Shown here: positions 4,464 to 49,150 of the stretch, piece by piece
Layout: each line of letters starts with the position of its first letter
How positions within the stretch are numbered: position 1 is the first letter of the stretch
Source of the DNA: Halorussus amylolyticus
Lineage (GTDB): Archaea; Halobacteriota; Halobacteria; Halobacteriales; Haladaptataceae
Direction: 5' to 3'
Length of the DNA: 64,000 nt
Assembly: GCF_004143485.2 (NCBI RefSeq)
Contig: NZ_ML974133.1
Location: 124,001 to 188,000, forward strand
Program-made: the position numbers and the translations under genes
The notes under the pieces: model-generated
Seen by the model: the letters and a program-made list of their open reading frames with translations, nothing else
Databases searched by the model: none
Told to the model about the DNA's origin: nothing

Positions 4464-5438
4464 ATGCGAGCGTGGCTCTCCGTCTACCTCAAGGGCATCT
4501 TCATGGGTGCCGCCGACGCCGTACCCGGCGTCTCCGGCGGGACCATCGCGCTGATAACCGGCATCTACGAGCGACTCGTCGGCGCTATTGCGGCGTTCGA
4601 CCCGCGAGTGCTGGCCGACCTCCCGCGGGCGTACGACCCCGACGCCCGTGCCCGCGTGGTCGGCCTGCTTCGGGAGATGGACGTGGCGTTTCTCGCGGTC
4701 CTCGGCGCGGGCGTCATGACTGCGATTATCGGGGTTACGGGGGTCGTCTCCGCGCTCGAAGCGTCGAACCCCGCGGTGCTGTTCGCGTTCTTCTTCGGTC
4801 TCATCGCGGCGTCGGCGGTCGTCCTCTGGAGCGAGGTCCGACTCGACACCCACGCCGAGCGCGCGGCGGCAGTGGTCGGATTCACCGTCGCGTTCGCGCT
4901 CTCGGGCGAGGCGGCGGGGGCCGCGATTTCCCACGCGCCTCCGGTCCTCTTCGTTGCGGGGGCGATAGCCATCTGTGCGATGATTCTCCCCGGCGTGTCG
5001 GGGTCGCTTCTGCTCGTCCTGTTCGGCCAGTACGTCTTCATGTCGAACACCCTCCACGCGTTCATCGACGGCGCGGTCGGCGTGGCCCGGGGCGAATCGC
5101 TCAGCTCGCTGGTCGGGCCGGGCGTCTCGATAGTCTCGTTCGTCGCGGGTGCGGCGGTCGGCATCCTCACGTTCGCCCGCGTCGTGAAGTGGGCGCTCGC
5201 GAATCACCGCGAGGTGACGCTCACCTTCCTGGTCGCGCTGATGGTCGGCGCGCTGAGGCTCCCGGTCGAGCGCGTCGTCGGCTCGGGCGGCGCGTGGCCG
5301 TCCGAGCGCGTGGCAGCGGTGTTGGTCGCAGGCCTCGTCGGAGCGTTCGCGGTCCTGCTCATCGACTACTACACCGACGACTTGGAGTACATCGAGGACG
5401 AGTCCTCCGGGGCGTCTGTGGCGGCTCGGAACGACTAG
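4464..5438 (+). CDS. DUF368 membrane protein, candidate polyprenyl-phosphate translocase
   Basis: 324-residue DUF368 protein. The start is placed at the ATG of MRAWLSVYLKG, because upstream codons in this frame are only the shadow of aglB. Two related motifs, PGVSGGTIALITGIYE near residue 18 and PGVSGSLLLVLFGQY near residue 175, show the internal duplication of the family. Bacterial DUF368 proteins (PopT) have been linked to recycling undecaprenyl phosphate across the membrane. Here the gene follows aglB by 68 bp. That position suggests return of dolichol phosphate released by glycan transfer; this is inference from the family and the neighbourhood. Confidence 0.88.
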   Translation: MRAWLSVYLKGIFMGAADAVPGVSGGTIALITGIYERLVGAIAAFDPRVLADLPRAYDPDARARVVGLLREMDVAFLAVLGAGVMTAIIGVTGVVSALEASNPAVLFAFFFGLIAASAVVLWSEVRLDTHAERAAAVVGFTVAFALSGEAAGAAISHAPPVLFVAGAIAICAMILPGVSGSLLLVLFGQYVFMSNTLHAFIDGAVGVARGESLSSLVGPGVSIVSFVAGAAVGILTFARVVKWALANHREVTLTFLVALMVGALRLPVERVVGSGGAWPSERVAAVLVAGLVGAFAVLLIDYYTDDLEYIEDESSGASVAARND

Positions 5439-40346: not shown

Positions 40347-40440
40347 CTCGATAGAACGGTCGTTCTCGGAAATCGTAGAGATGCTCGCGAACGTGTTCGG
40401 GCGGGCGCGACGAGGTCGTTCGAACCCGAATGAATAACTT

Positions 40441-40456
40441 TTTAGGCCTGCCTAAA
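40441..40456. promoter_or_regulatory. DtxR-type palindrome before the RGP-like gene
   Basis: TTTAGGC-CT-GCCTAAA, a perfect 7+2+7 palindrome, ends 17 bp before ATG 40474 and overlaps the expected TATA position. It resembles the TTAGG...CCTAA core bound by DtxR/IdeR-family metal repressors. A near copy precedes the iron transporter gene. Confidence 0.7.
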
Positions 40457-40473
40457 CCAATCCGGAGTAACGA

Positions 40474-41634
40474 ATGACGAGTCCAGACATCTGCGTGGTG
40501 GTCCCGACGATTCGAGAGTACGAGTGCATGCGAGCGTACTTCGAGAACGCCCGAACCCACGGTTTCGACTTGGACCGCCTCCACGTCGTCCTCGTGACCG
40601 AGGACTTCTGTGACACCGACGCGATGGCCGAGATGCTCGCCGAGGAGGGCGTCTCGGGCGAAGTGTTCGACGGCTCCCGGCGCGAGGAGTGGTACGACGA
40701 ACGCGGCATCGCGGAGTACGACCACGTCGTCCCCGCCGCGAGCCACGCCGAGACGAGTTTCGGCCTGCTCTACCTCTGGGCCAACGACTTCGAGTACGGC
40801 TTCTTCATCGACGACGACACCCTGCCCCACGACGACGCCGACTTCTTCGGCCAGCATATGCGGAACCTCGACTACGAGGGCGAAATCGAGGAGGTCTCCT
40901 CGGACGAGCAGTGGGTCAACGTCCTCTACCAGAACTACGACGAGCACGGGCTGTACCCCCGGGGCTACCCCTACTCCGCGATGGACGAGACGGTTGACAC
41001 CGACACGACCGAGATATCCGACGTAGTGGCCTCCCAGGGCCTCTGGACCAACGTTCCGGACCTCGACGCGGTCCGAATCCTGATGGACGGCGACCTGCAG
41101 GGGCAGGCCCAGACCCGGACGACCGCCGACGACTACGCCGGCGACTTCGTGGCCGCGCGCGGGAACTACCTCACGGTCTGCTCGATGAATCTCGCGTTCC
41201 GCCGCGAAATCGTCCCGGCGTTCTACCAGCTTCCGATGGACGAAAATCGGTGGGACGTGGGCCGATTCGACGACATCTGGAGCGGCGTGTTCCTCAAGCG
41301 CGCGTGCGACCTGCTCGGCAAGCGAATCTACAACGGCGGCCCGCTCTGCGAACACAACAAGGCCCCGCGCTCGACGTTCGACGACCTCAACAACGAGGTG
41401 CCGGGTCTCGAACTCAACGAGCACCTCTGGGAGGTGATAGACGACGCAGGAGCCGACGCCGACTCCTACGCGGCCGTCTTCGAGGCGATGGCGACCGAAC
41501 TCGCCGAGGGCGACTTCGAAGCCTACAACAACGGCGCGTTCTTCAACTACGTCGGGGAGTACATGCTCGACTGGCTCGCGGCGCTCGACGAACTTCGCAC
41601 CCTCCGAACCGCGCCCGCACCCGCCGACGACTGA
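40474..41634 (+). CDS. Reversibly glycosylated polypeptide-like protein (RGP/UDP-arabinopyranose mutase family)
   Basis: 386 residues with a GT-A-like N-terminus (DICVVVPTIREYECMRAYF) and an acidic cluster YGFFIDDDTLPHDDADFF that matches the DDD metal/nucleotide-sugar site of the RGP family. Other stretches: AARGNYLTVCSMNLAFRREI, and WDVGRFDDIWSGVFLKRACD. Plant RGPs interconvert UDP-arabinose ring forms and self-glycosylate; archaeal relatives are uncharacterised. A DtxR-type palindrome lies directly upstream, and the Fe(III) transporter operon follows with the same palindrome, so iron-linked expression is likely. A role in a surface glycan is inference. Confidence 0.8.
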   Translation: MTSPDICVVVPTIREYECMRAYFENARTHGFDLDRLHVVLVTEDFCDTDAMAEMLAEEGVSGEVFDGSRREEWYDERGIAEYDHVVPAASHAETSFGLLYLWANDFEYGFFIDDDTLPHDDADFFGQHMRNLDYEGEIEEVSSDEQWVNVLYQNYDEHGLYPRGYPYSAMDETVDTDTTEISDVVASQGLWTNVPDLDAVRILMDGDLQGQAQTRTTADDYAGDFVAARGNYLTVCSMNLAFRREIVPAFYQLPMDENRWDVGRFDDIWSGVFLKRACDLLGKRIYNGGPLCEHNKAPRSTFDDLNNEVPGLELNEHLWEVIDDAGADADSYAAVFEAMATELAEGDFEAYNNGAFFNYVGEYMLDWLAALDELRTLRTAPAPADD

Positions 41635-41661
41635 GACGCGGAAACCGGTAGTTATAAGAGT

Positions 41662-41677
41662 TTTAGGCCAGCCTAAT
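41662..41677. promoter_or_regulatory. DtxR-type palindrome before the iron transporter
   Basis: TTTAGGCCAGCCTAAT lies 7 bp before ATG 41685 and just downstream of the TATA-like GTTATAAG (41651-41658), the expected position for a metal-dependent repressor. Confidence 0.75.
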
Positions 41678-41684
41678 TTTACGT

Positions 41685-42842
41685 ATGAGCGAGCATCAGC
41701 GATGGACGAGACGCCGACTCCTCCAGAGCGGCGCAGTCGCAGGCACGATTGGACTCGCGGGCTGTGTGGACCTCGACCAACTCACGCCAGGAAACGGTGA
41801 CGGCGACGGCGGAAGCCTCTCGATTTCCGATTTCCGCGGCTCCGGCCCGATGGTCGAGAGTCGCGACGCGCCGGGCGGCACCTCGATGGACGACCTCCCG
41901 GACCTCGAAGGCGAACTCAACGTCTACCTCGGCGGCGGGGAGGGCGGTATCTACGCGAATCTCATGGACCTCCTCGAACAGAAGTACTCCGACTTCACGG
42001 CCAAGACGCGGTTGGACTCCTCGTCCGCGCTGGCCAACACCATCATCGAGGAAAAGAAGGGCGGCGAGAGTCCCGCAGACGTGTTCTGGTCGATAGACAG
42101 CACCTCGCTTGGCGTTGCGGCCGACGCCGGCGTGACCGCAACCCTTCCCGACCGCGTGCTCGACCCGGTCCCGGAGGGCTTCCGGGACGGCGACGGCAAC
42201 TGGGTCGGCGTGGCGGGGCGGGCCCGAGCGATTTCGTACAACACCGACGAGCTCTCGGAATCAGACATCCCGACCGATATCCACGAGTTCCCCGAGGTGG
42301 CGGCCCTGGAGGACGCAGTGGGGTGGGCACCCACTTACGGCGCGTTCAAATCGTTCGTCACCGCGATGCGACTCATCGCGGGTGAGGACGACGCCCGTCA
42401 GTGGCTCGAAGGGATGATTGATCACGGCGCGACCGACTATCAGAGCGAGTTCCTCGCGTCGAACGCTGTCGCCGACGGCGAAATCTCGGCCGCGTTCGCC
42501 AACCACTATTACGCCATTCGGGTGATGGCGTCCCGCCCCGACGCCCCCATCGACCTCGCGTTCACCGAGAACGACGCGGGTGCGCTGGTCAACGTCTCCG
42601 GTGTCGAGATGATAGAGGGTACCGACAAGTCCGAACTCGTGGCCGACTTCGCGCAGCATCTACTGTCGTCGGAGGCTCAAGAGTTCTTCGCCACTCGGGC
42701 GTTCGGATATCCGATGATTCCGGGTGTCAAGCCGGTTGGAGGTCTGCCGACGGTGGACGAACTGTCGCCGCCAGACGTGGACCTCTCGGAGCTATCGGAC
42801 CTCGAACCGACCGACGAACTCCTCGACGAAGTTGGACTGTAG
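41685..42842 (+). CDS. Fe(III) ABC transporter substrate-binding lipoprotein (FbpA-like)
   Basis: 385 residues. Tat signal TRRRLLQSGAVAG followed by the lipobox LAGC, giving a membrane-anchored lipoprotein. The mature part is a type-II periplasmic-binding fold; FANHYYAIR carries the adjacent Tyr pair that ligates ferric iron in FbpA/FutA. It is the first gene of a three-gene operon with zero spacing to the permease. The operator upstream supports iron as substrate over thiamine or spermidine. Confidence 0.9.
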   Translation: MSEHQRWTRRRLLQSGAVAGTIGLAGCVDLDQLTPGNGDGDGGSLSISDFRGSGPMVESRDAPGGTSMDDLPDLEGELNVYLGGGEGGIYANLMDLLEQKYSDFTAKTRLDSSSALANTIIEEKKGGESPADVFWSIDSTSLGVAADAGVTATLPDRVLDPVPEGFRDGDGNWVGVAGRARAISYNTDELSESDIPTDIHEFPEVAALEDAVGWAPTYGAFKSFVTAMRLIAGEDDARQWLEGMIDHGATDYQSEFLASNAVADGEISAAFANHYYAIRVMASRPDAPIDLAFTENDAGALVNVSGVEMIEGTDKSELVADFAQHLLSSEAQEFFATRAFGYPMIPGVKPVGGLPTVDELSPPDVDLSELSDLEPTDELLDEVGL

Positions 42843-44477
42843 ATGGCAACGAGTGACCGCCTCCGAAAGGTCGTCGGGGATGTTGGCGACGACGAGGCGC
42901 CGCCTCGAGTCGCGCTGATTCTGTTGGCGGGAGCCGTCGCCGCCGCGGCCAGCTTTCCGGTGGCGTGGCTCGTTATGCGGTCGCTCGAAATCGGCACGGA
43001 ACAAGCACTCGAACTCCTCGTTCAGCCCTCCACGCTCGAAATCGTCACCAACAGCATCCTGCTCGTCGCGGGAGTCACCGCGGGGTCGGTCGTAATTGGC
43101 GTCCCGCTCGCGGTCCTGACGGTCCAGACCGACCTCCCGTTCCGTCGGTTCTGGACCGTCGTGGTGTCGCTCCCGCTCGTCGTGCCGAGCTACATCGGCG
43201 CGTTCGCGTTCGTCTCGGCGTTCGGGCCGCGGGGCGAACTCGCCCAACTCCTCGCGCCGCTCGGAATATCCGAGATTCCGACCATCTACGGTTTCCACGG
43301 TGCCGTGTTGGTACTGACGCTGTTTACCTACCCCTACGTCTTCCTCACGACGCGAGCCGCACTCATCTCGTTCGACGGCACTCTCATCGAGGCCGCCAGA
43401 ACCCTTAATCACGGCCGGTGGGACGCGTTCAAGAAAGTGACGTTCCCGCAAATCGCGCCGGGCATCGCGGCCGGGAGCCTGCTGGTGGCGCTGTACGCGC
43501 TCTCGGACTTCGGCACGCCCGCAATCATGCAGTTCCCGGTGTTCACCCGCGAGATATACGTCAACATGTGGGACCGAAACTTCGCGGCATTGTTGTCGCT
43601 CCAGCTGCTGGCGCTCGCCGCTGTCATCCTCGCGCTCGAAAATCGGGTCAGCGCGAGCGACGAGGGCGCACACGTCTCGCGCGGGTCCGGGTCGGTCCGA
43701 TTCTCGCTCGGCGTCTGGAAGTTCCCCGCGCTCGCGTTCTGTACGCTCGTCGCAGTGGTGTGTCTCGTCGTCCCGGTCGGTATCTTGTTCGTGTGGCTCA
43801 CCCGACCTGGACCGGGGTACGCTGGCGGCGGCTTCGAGTTCTCGTGGCTCTACGGTCTCAGTTCGGTGTACGTGGCCGTGCTCGCCGCCGGAGTCGCTAC
43901 CCTCGCGGCGCTCCCCGTGGCGTACCTCTCCGGGCGGTCGGACGCCGCACTCGCCACGCTGTTCGAGCGCGCGAGCTACGTCGGGTACGCGACCCCCGGC
44001 GTGGTGCTGGGGCTTGCGCTCGTCTACTTCGGGTCGGCAAACGTACCCGGACTCTACCAGACGATTCCGCTCCTCACGTTCGCCTACGTCGTTCGGTTCC
44101 TGCCCCAAGCGGTCGGGTCGGTCCGGTCGTCGGTGTTGCAGGTGGACCCCAAACTCACCGAGGCCGCACGGACGCTCGGCGAGACGCCCGGCCGAACCTT
44201 CCGGCGAGTGACCCTGCCGCTCATCGCGCCGGGCGTGGTCGCGGGCGCGGCGCTCGTGTTCCTCACGACGATGAAAGAGCTTCCCGCGACCCTCATGCTG
44301 CGTCCGACAGGTTTTGAAACCCTCGTCACGTACATCTGGAACGTACAGGAAGCGGGCTACTACGGACAGGCCGCCGTCCCCGCGCTCGTCCTCGTGGGCG
44401 TCTCGGCGCTCTCGATGCTCGTCCTCCTCAGACAGGACGGCAGTCTCGTGGGACAAGAAGGAAAAAACGATGGATAG
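42843..44477 (+). CDS. Fe(III) ABC transporter permease (FbpB-like, fused two-domain)
   Basis: 544-residue permease with about 12 helices and two EAA loops, DGTLIEAARTLNHGRWDAFKK in the first half and EAARTLGETPGRTFRRVTLP in the second. This is the duplicated permease of the FbpB/ThiP class. The gene starts directly after the binding-protein stop and overlaps the ATPase gene by 8 bp. Confidence 0.93.
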   Translation: MATSDRLRKVVGDVGDDEAPPRVALILLAGAVAAAASFPVAWLVMRSLEIGTEQALELLVQPSTLEIVTNSILLVAGVTAGSVVIGVPLAVLTVQTDLPFRRFWTVVVSLPLVVPSYIGAFAFVSAFGPRGELAQLLAPLGISEIPTIYGFHGAVLVLTLFTYPYVFLTTRAALISFDGTLIEAARTLNHGRWDAFKKVTFPQIAPGIAAGSLLVALYALSDFGTPAIMQFPVFTREIYVNMWDRNFAALLSLQLLALAAVILALENRVSASDEGAHVSRGSGSVRFSLGVWKFPALAFCTLVAVVCLVVPVGILFVWLTRPGPGYAGGGFEFSWLYGLSSVYVAVLAAGVATLAALPVAYLSGRSDAALATLFERASYVGYATPGVVLGLALVYFGSANVPGLYQTIPLLTFAYVVRFLPQAVGSVRSSVLQVDPKLTEAARTLGETPGRTFRRVTLPLIAPGVVAGAALVFLTTMKELPATLMLRPTGFETLVTYIWNVQEAGYYGQAAVPALVLVGVSALSMLVLLRQDGSLVGQEGKNDG

Positions 44478-45669
44478 CGAACTGTCGAACGACACGCAGG
44501 ACATGGTACGAAAACGCGAACGAACGCCGGACGACCCCGGGGAGTCGAGTCCAGACGCCGACCGAGTGCTCGAACTCGACGGCGTCACCAAGACCTACGG
44601 CTCCGAGACCGCGGTGGACTCGCTCTCGCTGTCGGTTCACGAGGGCGAACTGCTCACCCTGCTCGGGCCGTCCGGGTGCGGGAAGACCACCACGCTCCGG
44701 ATGATGGCCGGACTCGAGCGCCCGGATTCGGGGTCGGTCCGACTCGACGGCGAGGTGGTCGCCGACGGGACCACCAGCGTCTCGCCCGAGAACCGAAACG
44801 TGGGGCTGGTGTTCCAGGACTTCGCGCTGTTCCCGCACCTCACGGTTGCCGAGAACGTCGCGTTCGGACTCACCGACGCGACCGACGAGGAAATCGACGA
44901 GAAAATCACGTCCCTTCTCGACCTCGTGAATCTCTCGGCCCACCGCGAGGCCAAGCCAGACGAGTTATCGGGCGGCCAGCAACAGCGGGTCGCGCTCGCG
45001 CGGTCGCTCGCGCCCGAACCCGCCATCCTCCTGCTCGACGAACCCTTCTCGAACCTCGACGTTCGCCTCCGGGTCGAGATGCGCGAGGAGGTCCGCGCGA
45101 TTCTGAAGGAGGCGGGCGTCACCGCCGTCTCGGTGACCCACGACCAGGAGGAGGCGCTCTCCATCTCCGACCGCGTGGCCGTGATGAACGACGGCGACGT
45201 CGAGCAGGCGGGCCGCCCCGAGAGCGTGTTCGAACACCCCGAATCGCGGTTCGTCGCCTCCTTCCTCGGGCAGGCAGGGTTCCTCTCGGGTCGGTACGAG
45301 GACGACGCCATCGAGACCCCAATCGGCGTGTTCACGCCCCAGCGTCTCAACGGTCTCTCCGAGGAGTACGCCGGCACCGACCTCGACGTACTGGTCCGGC
45401 CCGACGACCTTCAGGCGACCGTCGTGAGCGAGCGCGAGGCCGACGGCCACATCATTCACCGCCAGTACACCGGTCCGTCGTTCGTCTACCGCGTCGAACT
45501 CGGAAACGGCGACGTGGTCCACTGCCAGCACAACCACGTCAAGGAACTCGACATCGGTAAGCCCGTGACGGTCGAACTCGACGCCGACCACACGCTCGCG
45601 TGGTACCCGCCGCGCGAGGACGCCCCGGAAGGGACCGAACGACGCGCAGAGGCCCCGCGAACTCAATGA
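44470..45669 (+). CDS. Fe(III) ABC transporter ATPase (FbpC/PotA-like)
   Basis: 399 residues. Walker A GPSGCGKTT, signature LSGGQQQRVALARSL, Walker B LLLDEPFSNLD, H-loop VTHDQEEAL; the last ~110 residues are a TOBE-type domain. The start is MDSELSNDTQD; ~30 unconserved polar residues precede the ABC core. It overlaps the permease gene, and its stop overlaps the following gene by 4 bp. Confidence 0.94.
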   Translation: MDSELSNDTQDMVRKRERTPDDPGESSPDADRVLELDGVTKTYGSETAVDSLSLSVHEGELLTLLGPSGCGKTTTLRMMAGLERPDSGSVRLDGEVVADGTTSVSPENRNVGLVFQDFALFPHLTVAENVAFGLTDATDEEIDEKITSLLDLVNLSAHREAKPDELSGGQQQRVALARSLAPEPAILLLDEPFSNLDVRLRVEMREEVRAILKEAGVTAVSVTHDQEEALSISDRVAVMNDGDVEQAGRPESVFEHPESRFVASFLGQAGFLSGRYEDDAIETPIGVFTPQRLNGLSEEYAGTDLDVLVRPDDLQATVVSEREADGHIIHRQYTGPSFVYRVELGNGDVVHCQHNHVKELDIGKPVTVELDADHTLAWYPPREDAPEGTERRAEAPRTQ

Positions 45670-47776
45670 ATCGCCGACGGTTTCGCCTGCTGGCCGGGGC
45701 GCTCGCCCTGCTCGCGGGCGGGGTCGTTCTCTTTCTGGCAACCGAACTGTTTCCGTACCACACGCCCAACCACGACGAGGGCGTCTATCTCCAGCAGGCC
45801 ACGATGCTGTTGGAGGGGAAGCTGTTCGTCCGGCCGCCCGTGCCCGATGCGTTCAGACCGTGGTTCTTCGTCGAAGACGGCGCGCAGTTGTACCCGAAGT
45901 ACGCGCCGATTCCGGCCGCGATGTTCGCTGTCGGGGAGCTTCTGGGCGGCTACCGAACCGCGCTCGCGCTGGTCGCCGCGGGGAACGTCGGCCTGACGAC
46001 TCTGCTTGTCGCCGAGGCGTTCGACCGCCGGACCGGTCTGCTCGCGGGAGCCTTTCTGCTCGCGTCGCCGCTGTTCCTCGTGGACTCCTCTATCTTCCTC
46101 CCCTACGCGCCCACGACGTTCTGGAATCTGGTGTTCGCGGTGGCGTACGTCCGGGGCGCGCGCGCGGAATCCCGAAACACACCGAGAACCGCCTCGCGCG
46201 GGCGAGCGCCGCAGGCGCTCGCCCGCGCGAGCTACGGGTACGCCGCGCTCGCGGGCCTCGCAATCGGCATCGCGTTCTTCTCGCGACCCTACACCGCCGT
46301 ACTGTTCGCGGCCCCGTTCATCGCACACGCGCTGTACTCGCTCGTCCGCGGCTTTTCGTCCCGGTCCGACTCGCCCGACTCTCGATTACCGCCGTCTTCG
46401 GCCTCGCGGGCGTCGGGACCACGCTGGCGTACAACGCCACAGTGACCGGGTCGGCGCTGACGTTCCCCTACGAGGCGTTCGCGCCGCGCGACGGTCTCGG
46501 CTTCGGCTACCGCGAGATTCTTGGCTACGGTCGGGAGTACACCCCGGCGCTCGCGCTCCGGGCGAACGCCGAGGTGGTCTCGGTGCTGTTCGCCGAGTGG
46601 GTCGTCGCCGGACCGGTCGGCGCGCTGCTCGCGCTCGTCGGTGTCGGCGCGTTCCTCCGGCGGGCCGACCCTAACTGGTCGCCCGAGTTCACCGACGCGC
46701 AGACCCGCGCCGTGCTCGCCGGACTGTTCGTCTCCGTCGTCGCGGGCAACGTCTACTTCTGGGGGAACCTCAACATCCTCGGCGACCTCGCGGACCCCGC
46801 GGACGGACTCGTGGACACGCTCGGGCCGTACTACCACTTCGACCTGCTCGTGCCGACCGCGGCGTTCGCGGCCCACGCGACCGTACTCGGATTCGACCGC
46901 GTGCGTGCGCGGACGACCCGCACGGTACGCCCGCGGGCGACCCTCGCGGCGGTCGCGGTGGTCGGAACGCTTCTCCTCGCTGGCGCGGCCGGGGGTACCC
47001 TCGCGCCGACGCTCGCCGAGAACGCCGAAATAACGGGCGCGTACGAGCAGTCCTACCAGCCGTTGGAGGACCGTGACCTCTCGAACGCGGTGGTGTTCCT
47101 CCCGACGCCGTACGGCGACTGGCTGAATCACCCGTTCCAGCACCTCCGAAACGACCCCGGTTTCGACGGCGAGGTGGTCTACGCGATGGACGGACCCGAT
47201 ACGGCCGAAGTCGCCGCCGAGTACCCTGACCGCACCTACTACCGCTACGTCTACCGCGGCGAGTGGACGCCCTTCCTCGGCCAGTCGGTGGACTCGGCCC
47301 TCCGCGAGGTCCGGGTCGTCCGTGGCGACTCGGTCGGAGTGGGCGCTTCGTTCGGCGTCCCCGACCACGCAGACCGCGTTTCGGCGCGGCTCTCGACCGC
47401 CGAGGGCGCGAGCTACTACGCGATGAACGGCACCGGGAACGTCTCGCTCGACCTTCGAGTCGCGAACGGTTCGGCTCGCGTCGTCGGGTCGGAAATCAGC
47501 CCGGTCGGCGAAAACGGGTCGGTTCCGGTCGATTCCGACGACGAGGTACTCCTGCAGGTGTTCGTCAGCGACGCCGCAGGCGGGGGCTTTTCCTACCGGC
47601 TCGAACTCCCGGTCCGCGACGACGACGGCGAGTTAGTCGCGCTCTCGCCCTACCGCGAGGCGTGCTTCGTCGCCGACGAGTGCGGTGGCGAGGCCGCGTA
47701 CGTACCCGGCGCGGTTCCCTCCGGCGTCCACGTGGAGACGGATATTTATTCGTCGGCGAGCGAGTCGGATTCGTGA
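45666..47776 (+). pseudogene. GT-C membrane glycosyltransferase (PMT/GT39-like), frameshifted
   Basis: Starts MNRRRFRLLAGALALL, with the acidic GT-C motif NHDEGVYLQQA in the first loop and several membrane helices. The frame is lost around a run of four T (46353-46356); adding one base there joins YSLVRGF to the continuing helices (LSITAVFGLAGVG) and a soluble C-terminal domain, giving 703 residues. Either a one-base deletion has broken the gene or the sequence has an error there. The DNA also carries an 18-bp perfect palindrome (46193-46231). Relatives transfer sugars from dolichol phosphate donors. It is coupled to the iron ABC operon by an ATGA overlap. Confidence 0.8.
46193..46231. repeat. 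18-bp perfect palindrome within the GT-C gene
   Basis: Arms 46193-46210 and 46214-46231 around the loop GCA. It encodes SRGRAPQALARAS, a polar loop not expected to be conserved. Confidence 0.9.
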
Positions 47777-48378: not shown

Positions 48379-49098
48379 TCACTGCCGTCGCTCTTCGAGA
48401 CACACCTTCACGATGGACTTCGCGATGGCCAGTCCGCCCTTTATCGGGTCGAGTTTGGTCTCGCCCGCGCGCTCGTCGTACTCGATGGGGACTTCGCGCA
48501 CGTCGTAGCCTCTCATTAGGGGCCGAATCAGTAGTTCGGCCGACAGCCCGGTGTTCTCGGTCCACGCCACGTCCTCGATGACCCTCCGGCGGTACGCGCG
48601 CATTCCTGTCGTGGTGTCGTGGACGCGTTCGCCCATCAGCGCGCTCGCCAGCAGGGCGAACGCCTGATTCCCGAACCGATTGAAGTCCGGCATCGCGTCG
48701 GCTCCCCAGTAGAGGCGGTCGCCGCTCACCACGTCGTAGCCGCGGTTCACGTAGTCGAGGAACTCCGGAAGCTGTTCCATCGGATACGTGTCGTCGCAGT
48801 CGGTCGTCACGACCACCGGGCGGTCGGCCGCGAGCAGGGCCTCCCGAACCGCGACGCCGTAGCCCTGCGGCTCCTGTTTGATGACCCGTGCGCCGTGTTC
48901 GCGAGCGATTTCGGGAGTTCGGTCGCTCGACCCATCGACGCAGACGACCTCCGCGCGACCGTCGGTGATTCGGTCGATGTCGGACAGGACCGCCTCGATA
49001 GCGGCCTCCTCGTTGTAGGTGCCCATGACGACACTCAGGTCGTCGAAGGTGTACTGTTCAGTCGCCTCGGCATCCGTACCGACCGCGTCCGTACTCAT
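48379..49098 (-). CDS. GT2 glycosyltransferase, dolichol-phosphate-sugar synthase-like
   Basis: 239 residues of the DPM1/GT2 family. Motifs: SVVMGTYNEEAAIEAVL, VVCVDGSSDRTPEIA, the metal-binding VVVTTDCDDTYP, and NRFGNQAFALLASALMG. There are no C-terminal membrane helices, as in the short DPM1-type enzymes. It should load a sugar on dolichol phosphate for AglB-type glycosylation or the GT-C enzyme upstream. A degenerate DtxR-type palindrome lies 35 bp upstream. Confidence 0.9.
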   Translation of the reverse strand: MSTDAVGTDAEATEQYTFDDLSVVMGTYNEEAAIEAVLSDIDRITDGRAEVVCVDGSSDRTPEIAREHGARVIKQEPQGYGVAVREALLAADRPVVVTTDCDDTYPMEQLPEFLDYVNRGYDVVSGDRLYWGADAMPDFNRFGNQAFALLASALMGERVHDTTTGMRAYRRRVIEDVAWTENTGLSAELLIRPLMRGYDVREVPIEYDERAGETKLDPIKGGLAIAKSIVKVCLEERRQ

Positions 49099-49132: not shown

Positions 49133-49150
49133 TTTTAGGTTCGCCAAAAA
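49133..49150. promoter_or_regulatory. Degenerate DtxR-type site before the GT2 gene
   Basis: TTTTAGGTTCGCCAAAAA resembles the two palindromes at 40441 and 41662 in one half (TTTAGG) and partly in the other (GCCAAA). GTACAAATACGG just downstream on the minus strand is a possible TATA element. Confidence 0.4.

Follow-up and report, generated by a model that had tools for sequence, protein, structure and literature searches.

Predicted DtxR-family iron boxes at a ferric transporter operon and at glycosylation genes of Halorussus amylolyticus

The locus described here raises the question why the gene for a sugar-nucleotide enzyme of Halorussus amylolyticus carries the same promoter palindrome as an adjacent ferric-iron transporter operon. 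The window, which is the whole stretch of 64,000 nucleotides analysed (G000:C4:124001-188000), is part of a 3.78 Mb genome of 20 contigs, and its relevant features are collected in Table 1. First-pass annotation of the window had placed palindromes of the DtxR type at or just after the TATA box of an RGP-like gene and of an Fe(III) transporter operon, and had proposed that the sugar-nucleotide enzyme would be part of the iron regulon. Both palindromes were found where they had been annotated, TATA-like elements lie directly 5' of each of them, and the genes that they front were identified by homology as a GT75/RGP gene and a gene for an FbpA-class binding lipoprotein (SBP). The palindromes have the form TTTAGG-N4-CCTAAA, the copy of the transporter operon having one end mismatch, and are located 17 bp (RGP, ATG 40474) and 7 bp (SBP, ATG 41685) before the start codon. 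When orthologous RGP promoters were aligned, an A-rich region appeared near the offset of the TATA-like element. A third, weaker box was found 35 bp before a GT2 gene. On balance, the palindromes are probably operators of a DtxR-family iron regulon that would control the transporter together with a trio of extracytoplasmic glycosylation enzymes (RGP, GT-C, and GT2) induced upon iron starvation.

Table 1. Coordinates of the promoter elements and genes of the locus within the window
Feature	Position	Strand	Basis
TATA-like element AATAACTT, RGP promoter	40433..40440	+	Predicted, read from sequence
DtxR-type palindrome TTTAGGCCTGCCTAAA, RGP promoter	40441..40456	.	Read from sequence; kept in 79/80 orthologous loci
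RGP-like protein, GT75 NDP-pyranose-mutase family (RGP)	40474..41634	+	PF03214 E 1.4e-20; MtdL 7yua E 2.6e-24
TATA-like element TTATAAG, transporter operon	41652..41658	+	Predicted, read from sequence
DtxR-type palindrome TTTAGGCCAGCCTAAT, transporter operon promoter	41662..41677	.	Box with at most 2 mismatches in 70/77 orthologous SBP upstream regions
FbpA-class Fe(III)-binding lipoprotein (SBP)	41685..42842	+	7w3w E 4.3e-52; NHYY invariant 27/27
ABC permease, fused, two BPD_transp_1 stretches	42843..44477	+	Domain match
ABC ATPase with TOBE_2 domain	44470..45669	+	Domain match; ferric transporter ATPase model among the below-cut-off NCBIfam matches
GT-C membrane glycosyltransferase, PMT_2/DUF7846 type	45666..47776	+	Two frames; orthologue matches Pfam PMT_2 and DUF7846
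GT2, polyprenyl-phosphate-sugar-synthase-like	48379..49098	-	PDB 5mlz DPMS E 1.7e-13; ArnC-type 5e-07
Third, weaker box TTTAGGTTCGCCAAAA, 2 mismatches, upstream of GT2 gene	49134..49149	.	Orthologous GT2 box exact in 24/26 evaluable loci

The box in the genome and among relatives

Within the 64 kb of the window, seven matches with at most three mismatches were found against 3.3 expected, and nine of 100 shuffles reached seven as well, so that the excess of the loose pattern lacks significance; as this chance test was too weak, genome-wide and cross-species tests were used. A search of the whole genome, as suggested by the first-pass annotation, returned nine sites of the strict core TTAGGCNNGCCTAA, against one site of the reversed-pattern control and a base-composition expectation of 0.12. 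The motif is thus not equally common in random DNA, an outcome that the first-pass annotation had named as refuting its proposal, and all nine sites are followed by a start codon within about 40 bp. Loosening of the pattern brought the counts near the control level, both for the form TTWGGNNNNCCWAA (17 sites versus 10) and for a pattern with two mismatches (17 sites versus 12), so that only strict or conserved sites can be considered safe in this genome; the loose pattern was rejected as proof. The strict sites front the genes for three Peripla_BP_2 lipoproteins, the ferric SBP, RGP, and DUF7552, GSDH, and Gluconate_2-dh3 proteins, the ninth separating a 38-aa ORF from a gene in divergent orientation. 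Most of them are at iron-uptake genes, among which are genes for binding proteins of the siderophore and ferric types. Looser sites are located before a FecCD operon and before genes for a DUF7551/DUF7552 protein, a SufC-like ATPase, and, in locus L054, a ferritin-like protein.

Some of these sites deserve a separate mention. The strict box G000:C2:415506-415521 (L028, around position 4507) lies just 5' of the basic 38-aa ORF, possibly an iron-controlled microprotein; an AIM24-like gene follows, and a lipoate-ligase-like gene is oriented divergently, the latter two being named from a look at the sequence. Boxed genes for DUF7552 and DUF7551/DUF7552 proteins occur in both Halorussus and Haloferax (L029:13707-14162, L036:5942-6973, and L155:1599-2576). 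Proteins of a sugar-oxidising type are boxed too, namely GSDH and Gluconate_2-dh3 (L027:4463-5821, L029:4058-4585, and L160:892-1506), the Gluconate_2-dh3 protein in both Halorussus and Haloferax. Finally, the gene for the SufC-like ABC ATPase, again named from a look at the sequence (L169:2349-3248; G000:C13:81833), starts 1 bp after the palindrome TTAGGTGAACCTAA.

Concerning the regulator, three distinct DtxR-family genes were present in the genome, one of which combines Fe_dep_repress, Fe_dep_repr_C, and FeoA domains. They gave five matches, as the 8.9 kb contig G000:C18 duplicates the end of C6 in inverted orientation (L040 and L038), probably by assembly redundancy, and two of these genes were counted twice. 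This number of candidate regulators, the ZIP transporter genes near looser sites, and the Mn2+ used by GT75 enzymes (PMC9937993, in part) would fit boxes that respond to manganese or another metal instead of iron. Such a response is very improbable, considering that the strict sites are at siderophore-type and ferric binding proteins and that looser ones are at the FecCD operon, the SufC-like ATPase, and the ferritin-like protein of L054.

An iron regulon of this type is known. The box presumably corresponds to the FerR consensus, and Leyn and Rodionov reportedly described the FerR / DtxR-family iron regulon of Halobacteriales in 2015. Excerpts of PMC11349517 place a FerR/DtxR-family signal of Halobacteriales upstream of siderophore transporter genes and name Idr1/Idr2, FerR, and TroR as known haloarchaeal regulators of this regulon type. 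Also, HVO_1705 is termed an iron(III) transporter, with reference to Leyn and Rodionov 2015 (PMC10869688, in part), and via this protein as a candidate SBP orthologue, the ferric transporter probably belongs to the known regulon already. Boxes at iron-uptake genes are what the known regulon and the present locus have in common; the latter adds a three-enzyme glycosylation set with boxes of its own.

Conservation was assessed in the best 80 of 146 confirmed relatives, all 80 of which were used, a set that leans to closer relatives. Counted over the 12 defined box positions, the RGP boxes of these 80 loci displayed zero, one, two, and three mismatches in 67, 11, 1, and 1 loci, respectively, so that a box with at most two mismatches was retained in 79 of 80, while no palindrome made from any of the 59 other half-site orderings was found in more than two of the 80 RGP promoters. 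In the aligned RGP boxes, the central 4 bp and most flanking positions were variable. Corresponding counts for the orthologous SBP and GT2 genes are given in Table 1, the evaluable GT2 loci being the 28 found minus one at a contig edge and one in a run of N. In Haloferax massiliensis (G391), 35 boxes were counted against two for the reversed-pattern control; in three further relatives, the counts were 14 versus 10, 32 versus 4, and 20 versus 5. RGP, SBP, and GT2 of Haloferax massiliensis were boxed among siderophore-type binding proteins (34 of the 35 sites examined, called genes scanned in part). The retention of the RGP box in 79 of 80 loci and the position of strict sites mostly at iron-uptake genes support the earlier proposal that a sugar-nucleotide enzyme would be a member of the iron regulon. 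As far as sequences can tell, the assignment of the boxes to an iron regulon is well supported, binding of the repressor and a response to iron being predicted.

Alternatively, the glycosylation genes may owe their boxes merely to a position next to or within an iron operon and encode enzymes of ordinary S-layer or exopolysaccharide glycosylation that have no role related to iron. GT-C is indeed an internal operon gene that lacks a box of its own (0 of 78 loci; 0 of 41 for the ATPase and 2 of 54 for the permease). Further, L105 (Halocatena) and L115 lack the SBP gene and the GT2 box and have a degraded RGP box, yet RGP, GT-C, and GT2 remain, which indicates that the pathway can dispense with iron control in some haloarchaea. 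This explanation is nevertheless unlikely, since RGP and GT2 are boxed separately and GT2 is on the opposite strand, the boxed GT2 gene of Haloferax massiliensis is about 100 kb away from RGP, and conservation over many genera argues for selection.

The encoded proteins

The RGP-like protein matched the Pfam RGP family with 74.2 bits (cut-off 23.8) and, among PDB sequences, the GDP-pyranose mutase MtdL (Table 1) and rice UAM (E 1.5e-06); its closest named relatives were from Halorussus (85-87% identity). An AlphaFold2 model (pLDDT 84.5) was superposed on MtdL with Z 37.1 (356 aligned, rmsd 2.8) and on rice UAM2 with Z 27.9, the next entry reaching 14.8. The residues D113-115, R163, D196, R264, D267, and H294 were invariant in 38 sequences, and S237 is also among the kept residues that MtdL requires (PMC9937993, in part). 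The GT75 signature was present, comprising the DXD motif, the autoglycosylated Arg, an Asp, and the metal-binding His (roles according to excerpts of PMC9937993). Two positions differed, MtdL D87 and Q229 being H91 and M238 in RGP. On the evidence of sequence and model, RGP is a member of GT75 (RGP/UAM/MtdL) over its whole chain, and mutase activity is predicted for it. As autoglycosylation of GT75 proteins takes place at a conserved Arg (PMC9937993, in part) and this Arg, R163, is invariant in haloarchaeal RGP, the protein might instead be a reversibly self-glycosylated scaffold or sensor that ties the sugar-nucleotide status to iron uptake; this is improbable, given that the mutase-essential residues are kept too and that co-inheritance of RGP with two sugar-transfer enzymes points to metabolism. 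Compared with the known GT75 mutases (plant UAM/RGP and bacterial MtdL and Hyg20), the predicted haloarchaeal mutase shares the whole-chain fold and catalytic residues. The roles known for GT75 members are in the synthesis of plant cell walls or antibiotics (PMC9937993, in part), whereas the haloarchaeal RGP would represent an archaeal subfamily tied to iron control. One haloarchaeon contains a second, plant-type RGP (L122; G010:C2:1525556-1526527; E 1.1e-135), which also has M at the position of M238 and lies beside a glycosyltransferase-like frame; it was probably acquired separately.

The genes of the transporter unit abut or overlap, as the SBP stop ends at 42842 and the permease ATG is at 42843, and the ATPase stop ends at 45669 and the GT-C ATG is at 45666; SBP, permease, ATPase, and GT-C genes were hence taken to form a single operon behind the second box. 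By sequence, SBP is a ferric binding protein of the FbpA class, with a predicted ligand role for its NHYY, which is taken here to be the paired-Tyr ligand motif. A conserved GSG...R..PGGT motif follows the lipobox at the SBP N-terminus (window, around 41838-41883), possibly a modification or docking site.

In this assembly, a frameshift between about 46340 and about 46410 splits the GT-C gene over two reading frames, which counts against the pathway proposed below; relatives carry intact copies. A structural model was built on the copy of L047 (pLDDT 77). This model matched oligosaccharyltransferase (OST), ALG12, ArnT, and PMT structures with Z 23-27 and the mycobacterial AftD, AftA, AftB, and EmbB with Z 14-18. 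Fold comparison alone placed GT-C, as a sequence search of an orthologue against solved structures gave no match. From the fold and an NHDE motif invariant in 29 of 29 sequences, GT-C is predicted to be catalytic, with the acidic motif in the first extracytoplasmic loop. The GT2 protein, whose orthologue matched PF00535, is by sequence closest to dolichol-phosphate-mannose synthase and ArnC-type enzymes, and a corresponding activity is predicted.

Co-inheritance of the glycosylation enzymes

RGP was present in 305 of the 391 Halobacteria genomes sampled, nearly always as a single copy, and a GT-C profile (E 1e-60) was matched in 305 of 391 as well; the two sets consist of the same genomes. In a subset of 116 genomes, a GT2 profile (E 1e-40) was matched in 93, all of them RGP-positive. 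Among the 23 GT2-negative genomes, 20 were listed and were all RGP-negative, the other three following by exclusion. Both states, presence and absence, were mixed within at least nine genera (g1, g2, g7, g12, g17, g20, g27, g30, and g45), indicating that the genes were repeatedly gained or lost jointly. SBP alone (E 1e-50) was matched in 113 of the 116 genomes, so that it did not separate RGP-positive from RGP-negative ones; nearly all of its top scores go with RGP.

At the locus itself, RGP, SBP, and GT-C were retained in 80, 77, and 78 of the 80 loci, respectively, and the permease and the ATPase were found in 54 and 41, contig ends cutting some loci. Locus L093 was dropped as an example without SBP and GT-C, as its sequence has runs of N and counts as no information. 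The closest partners of RGP, besides the transporter, are two other glycosylation enzymes, which the first-pass annotation had overlooked.

Predicted pathway and known systems

Starting from the observed site conservation, gene families, synteny, and perfect co-occurrence of the enzymes, the following mechanism is proposed. At plentiful iron, a metal-loaded DtxR-family repressor would cover the promoters at or immediately 3' of the TATA region and block transcription of two adjacent units, namely RGP and the SBP-permease-ATPase-GT-C operon, the third box controlling the downstream GT2. Upon iron scarcity, the ferric-iron ABC transporter and the three-enzyme glycosylation pathway would be made together. 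In the predicted order of steps, RGP would convert an NDP-pyranose into an NDP-furanose, the presumed sugar; GT2 would load the furanose onto polyprenyl phosphate; and GT-C would pass it on, at the outer side of the membrane, to an acceptor on the cell surface. Candidate acceptors are the SBP lipoprotein encoded next to these genes and other glycoproteins of the surface; the SBP is the favoured one, as its gene accompanies the trio even where those of permease and ATPase have been lost. It is possible, albeit doubtful, that the three enzymes, acting as GT75 mutase, polyprenyl-phosphate-furanose synthase, and GT-C transferase, in this way attach a furanose to the cell surface or to the lipoprotein that binds ferric iron, surface glycosylation being a working part of iron acquisition. 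The data suggest that salt-loving archaea change their sugar coating at iron shortage.

To our knowledge, no GT75 enzyme has been found before to feed a membrane-carrier furanose route; if the proposal is true, RGP would be the first. A concrete function and partners would be provided for a conserved haloarchaeal gene family, and surface glycosylation would be linked to iron starvation in archaea, a question that can be tested in Haloferax, for which deletions and glycoproteomics are routine. Studies of haloarchaeal glycans would then have to control the iron status.

Two known systems resemble this proposal in part. In mycobacteria, polyprenyl-phosphate arabinofuranose is the donor for the GT-C transferases Aft and Emb, the furanose being made on the lipid by another route than that proposed here for GT75. 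The proposed common logic is furanose supply, a polyprenyl-phosphate donor, and GT-C transfer outside, whereas by fold the haloarchaeal GT-C fits OST, ALG12, ArnT, and PMT better than the mycobacterial Aft and EmbB. Similarly, siderophore glucosylation by IroB, yielding salmochelin, is under control of Fur. A sugar-transfer enzyme under iron-starvation control, predicted in the case of the haloarchaea, is common to both, but the IroB system acts without GT-C or polyprenyl carrier and its acceptor is a cytosolic small molecule.

In the open-licence literature, no report was found of an archaeal RGP or of its link to iron-dependent glycosylation, nor of RGP, GT-C, and GT2 as an iron-controlled glycosylation set. 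Within that literature, the glycosylation partners of RGP are thus a new result, the type of regulon being known. Excerpts of PMC11349517 on the iron-starvation proteome of Haloferax volcanii do not name RGP in the table of changes of at least 10-fold; they do list HVO_1859 (UPF0104) and HVO_0655 (GalE) as raised at least 10-fold. Genes of the UPF0104 and GalE types occur near RGP in some loci, the UPF0104 gene being boxed in 14. The induction of HVO_1859 and HVO_0655 was nonetheless dropped as support, because the sole UPF0104 match of Haloferax massiliensis, which lies in a 711-aa open frame, is at none of the listed boxes, which leaves the orthology unproven. In some genera, the gene directly 5' of RGP is boxed itself and encodes a UPF0104/LPG_synthase_TM membrane protein (L047:4785-5987 and L081:4804-5943), which may be a lipid-sugar partner.
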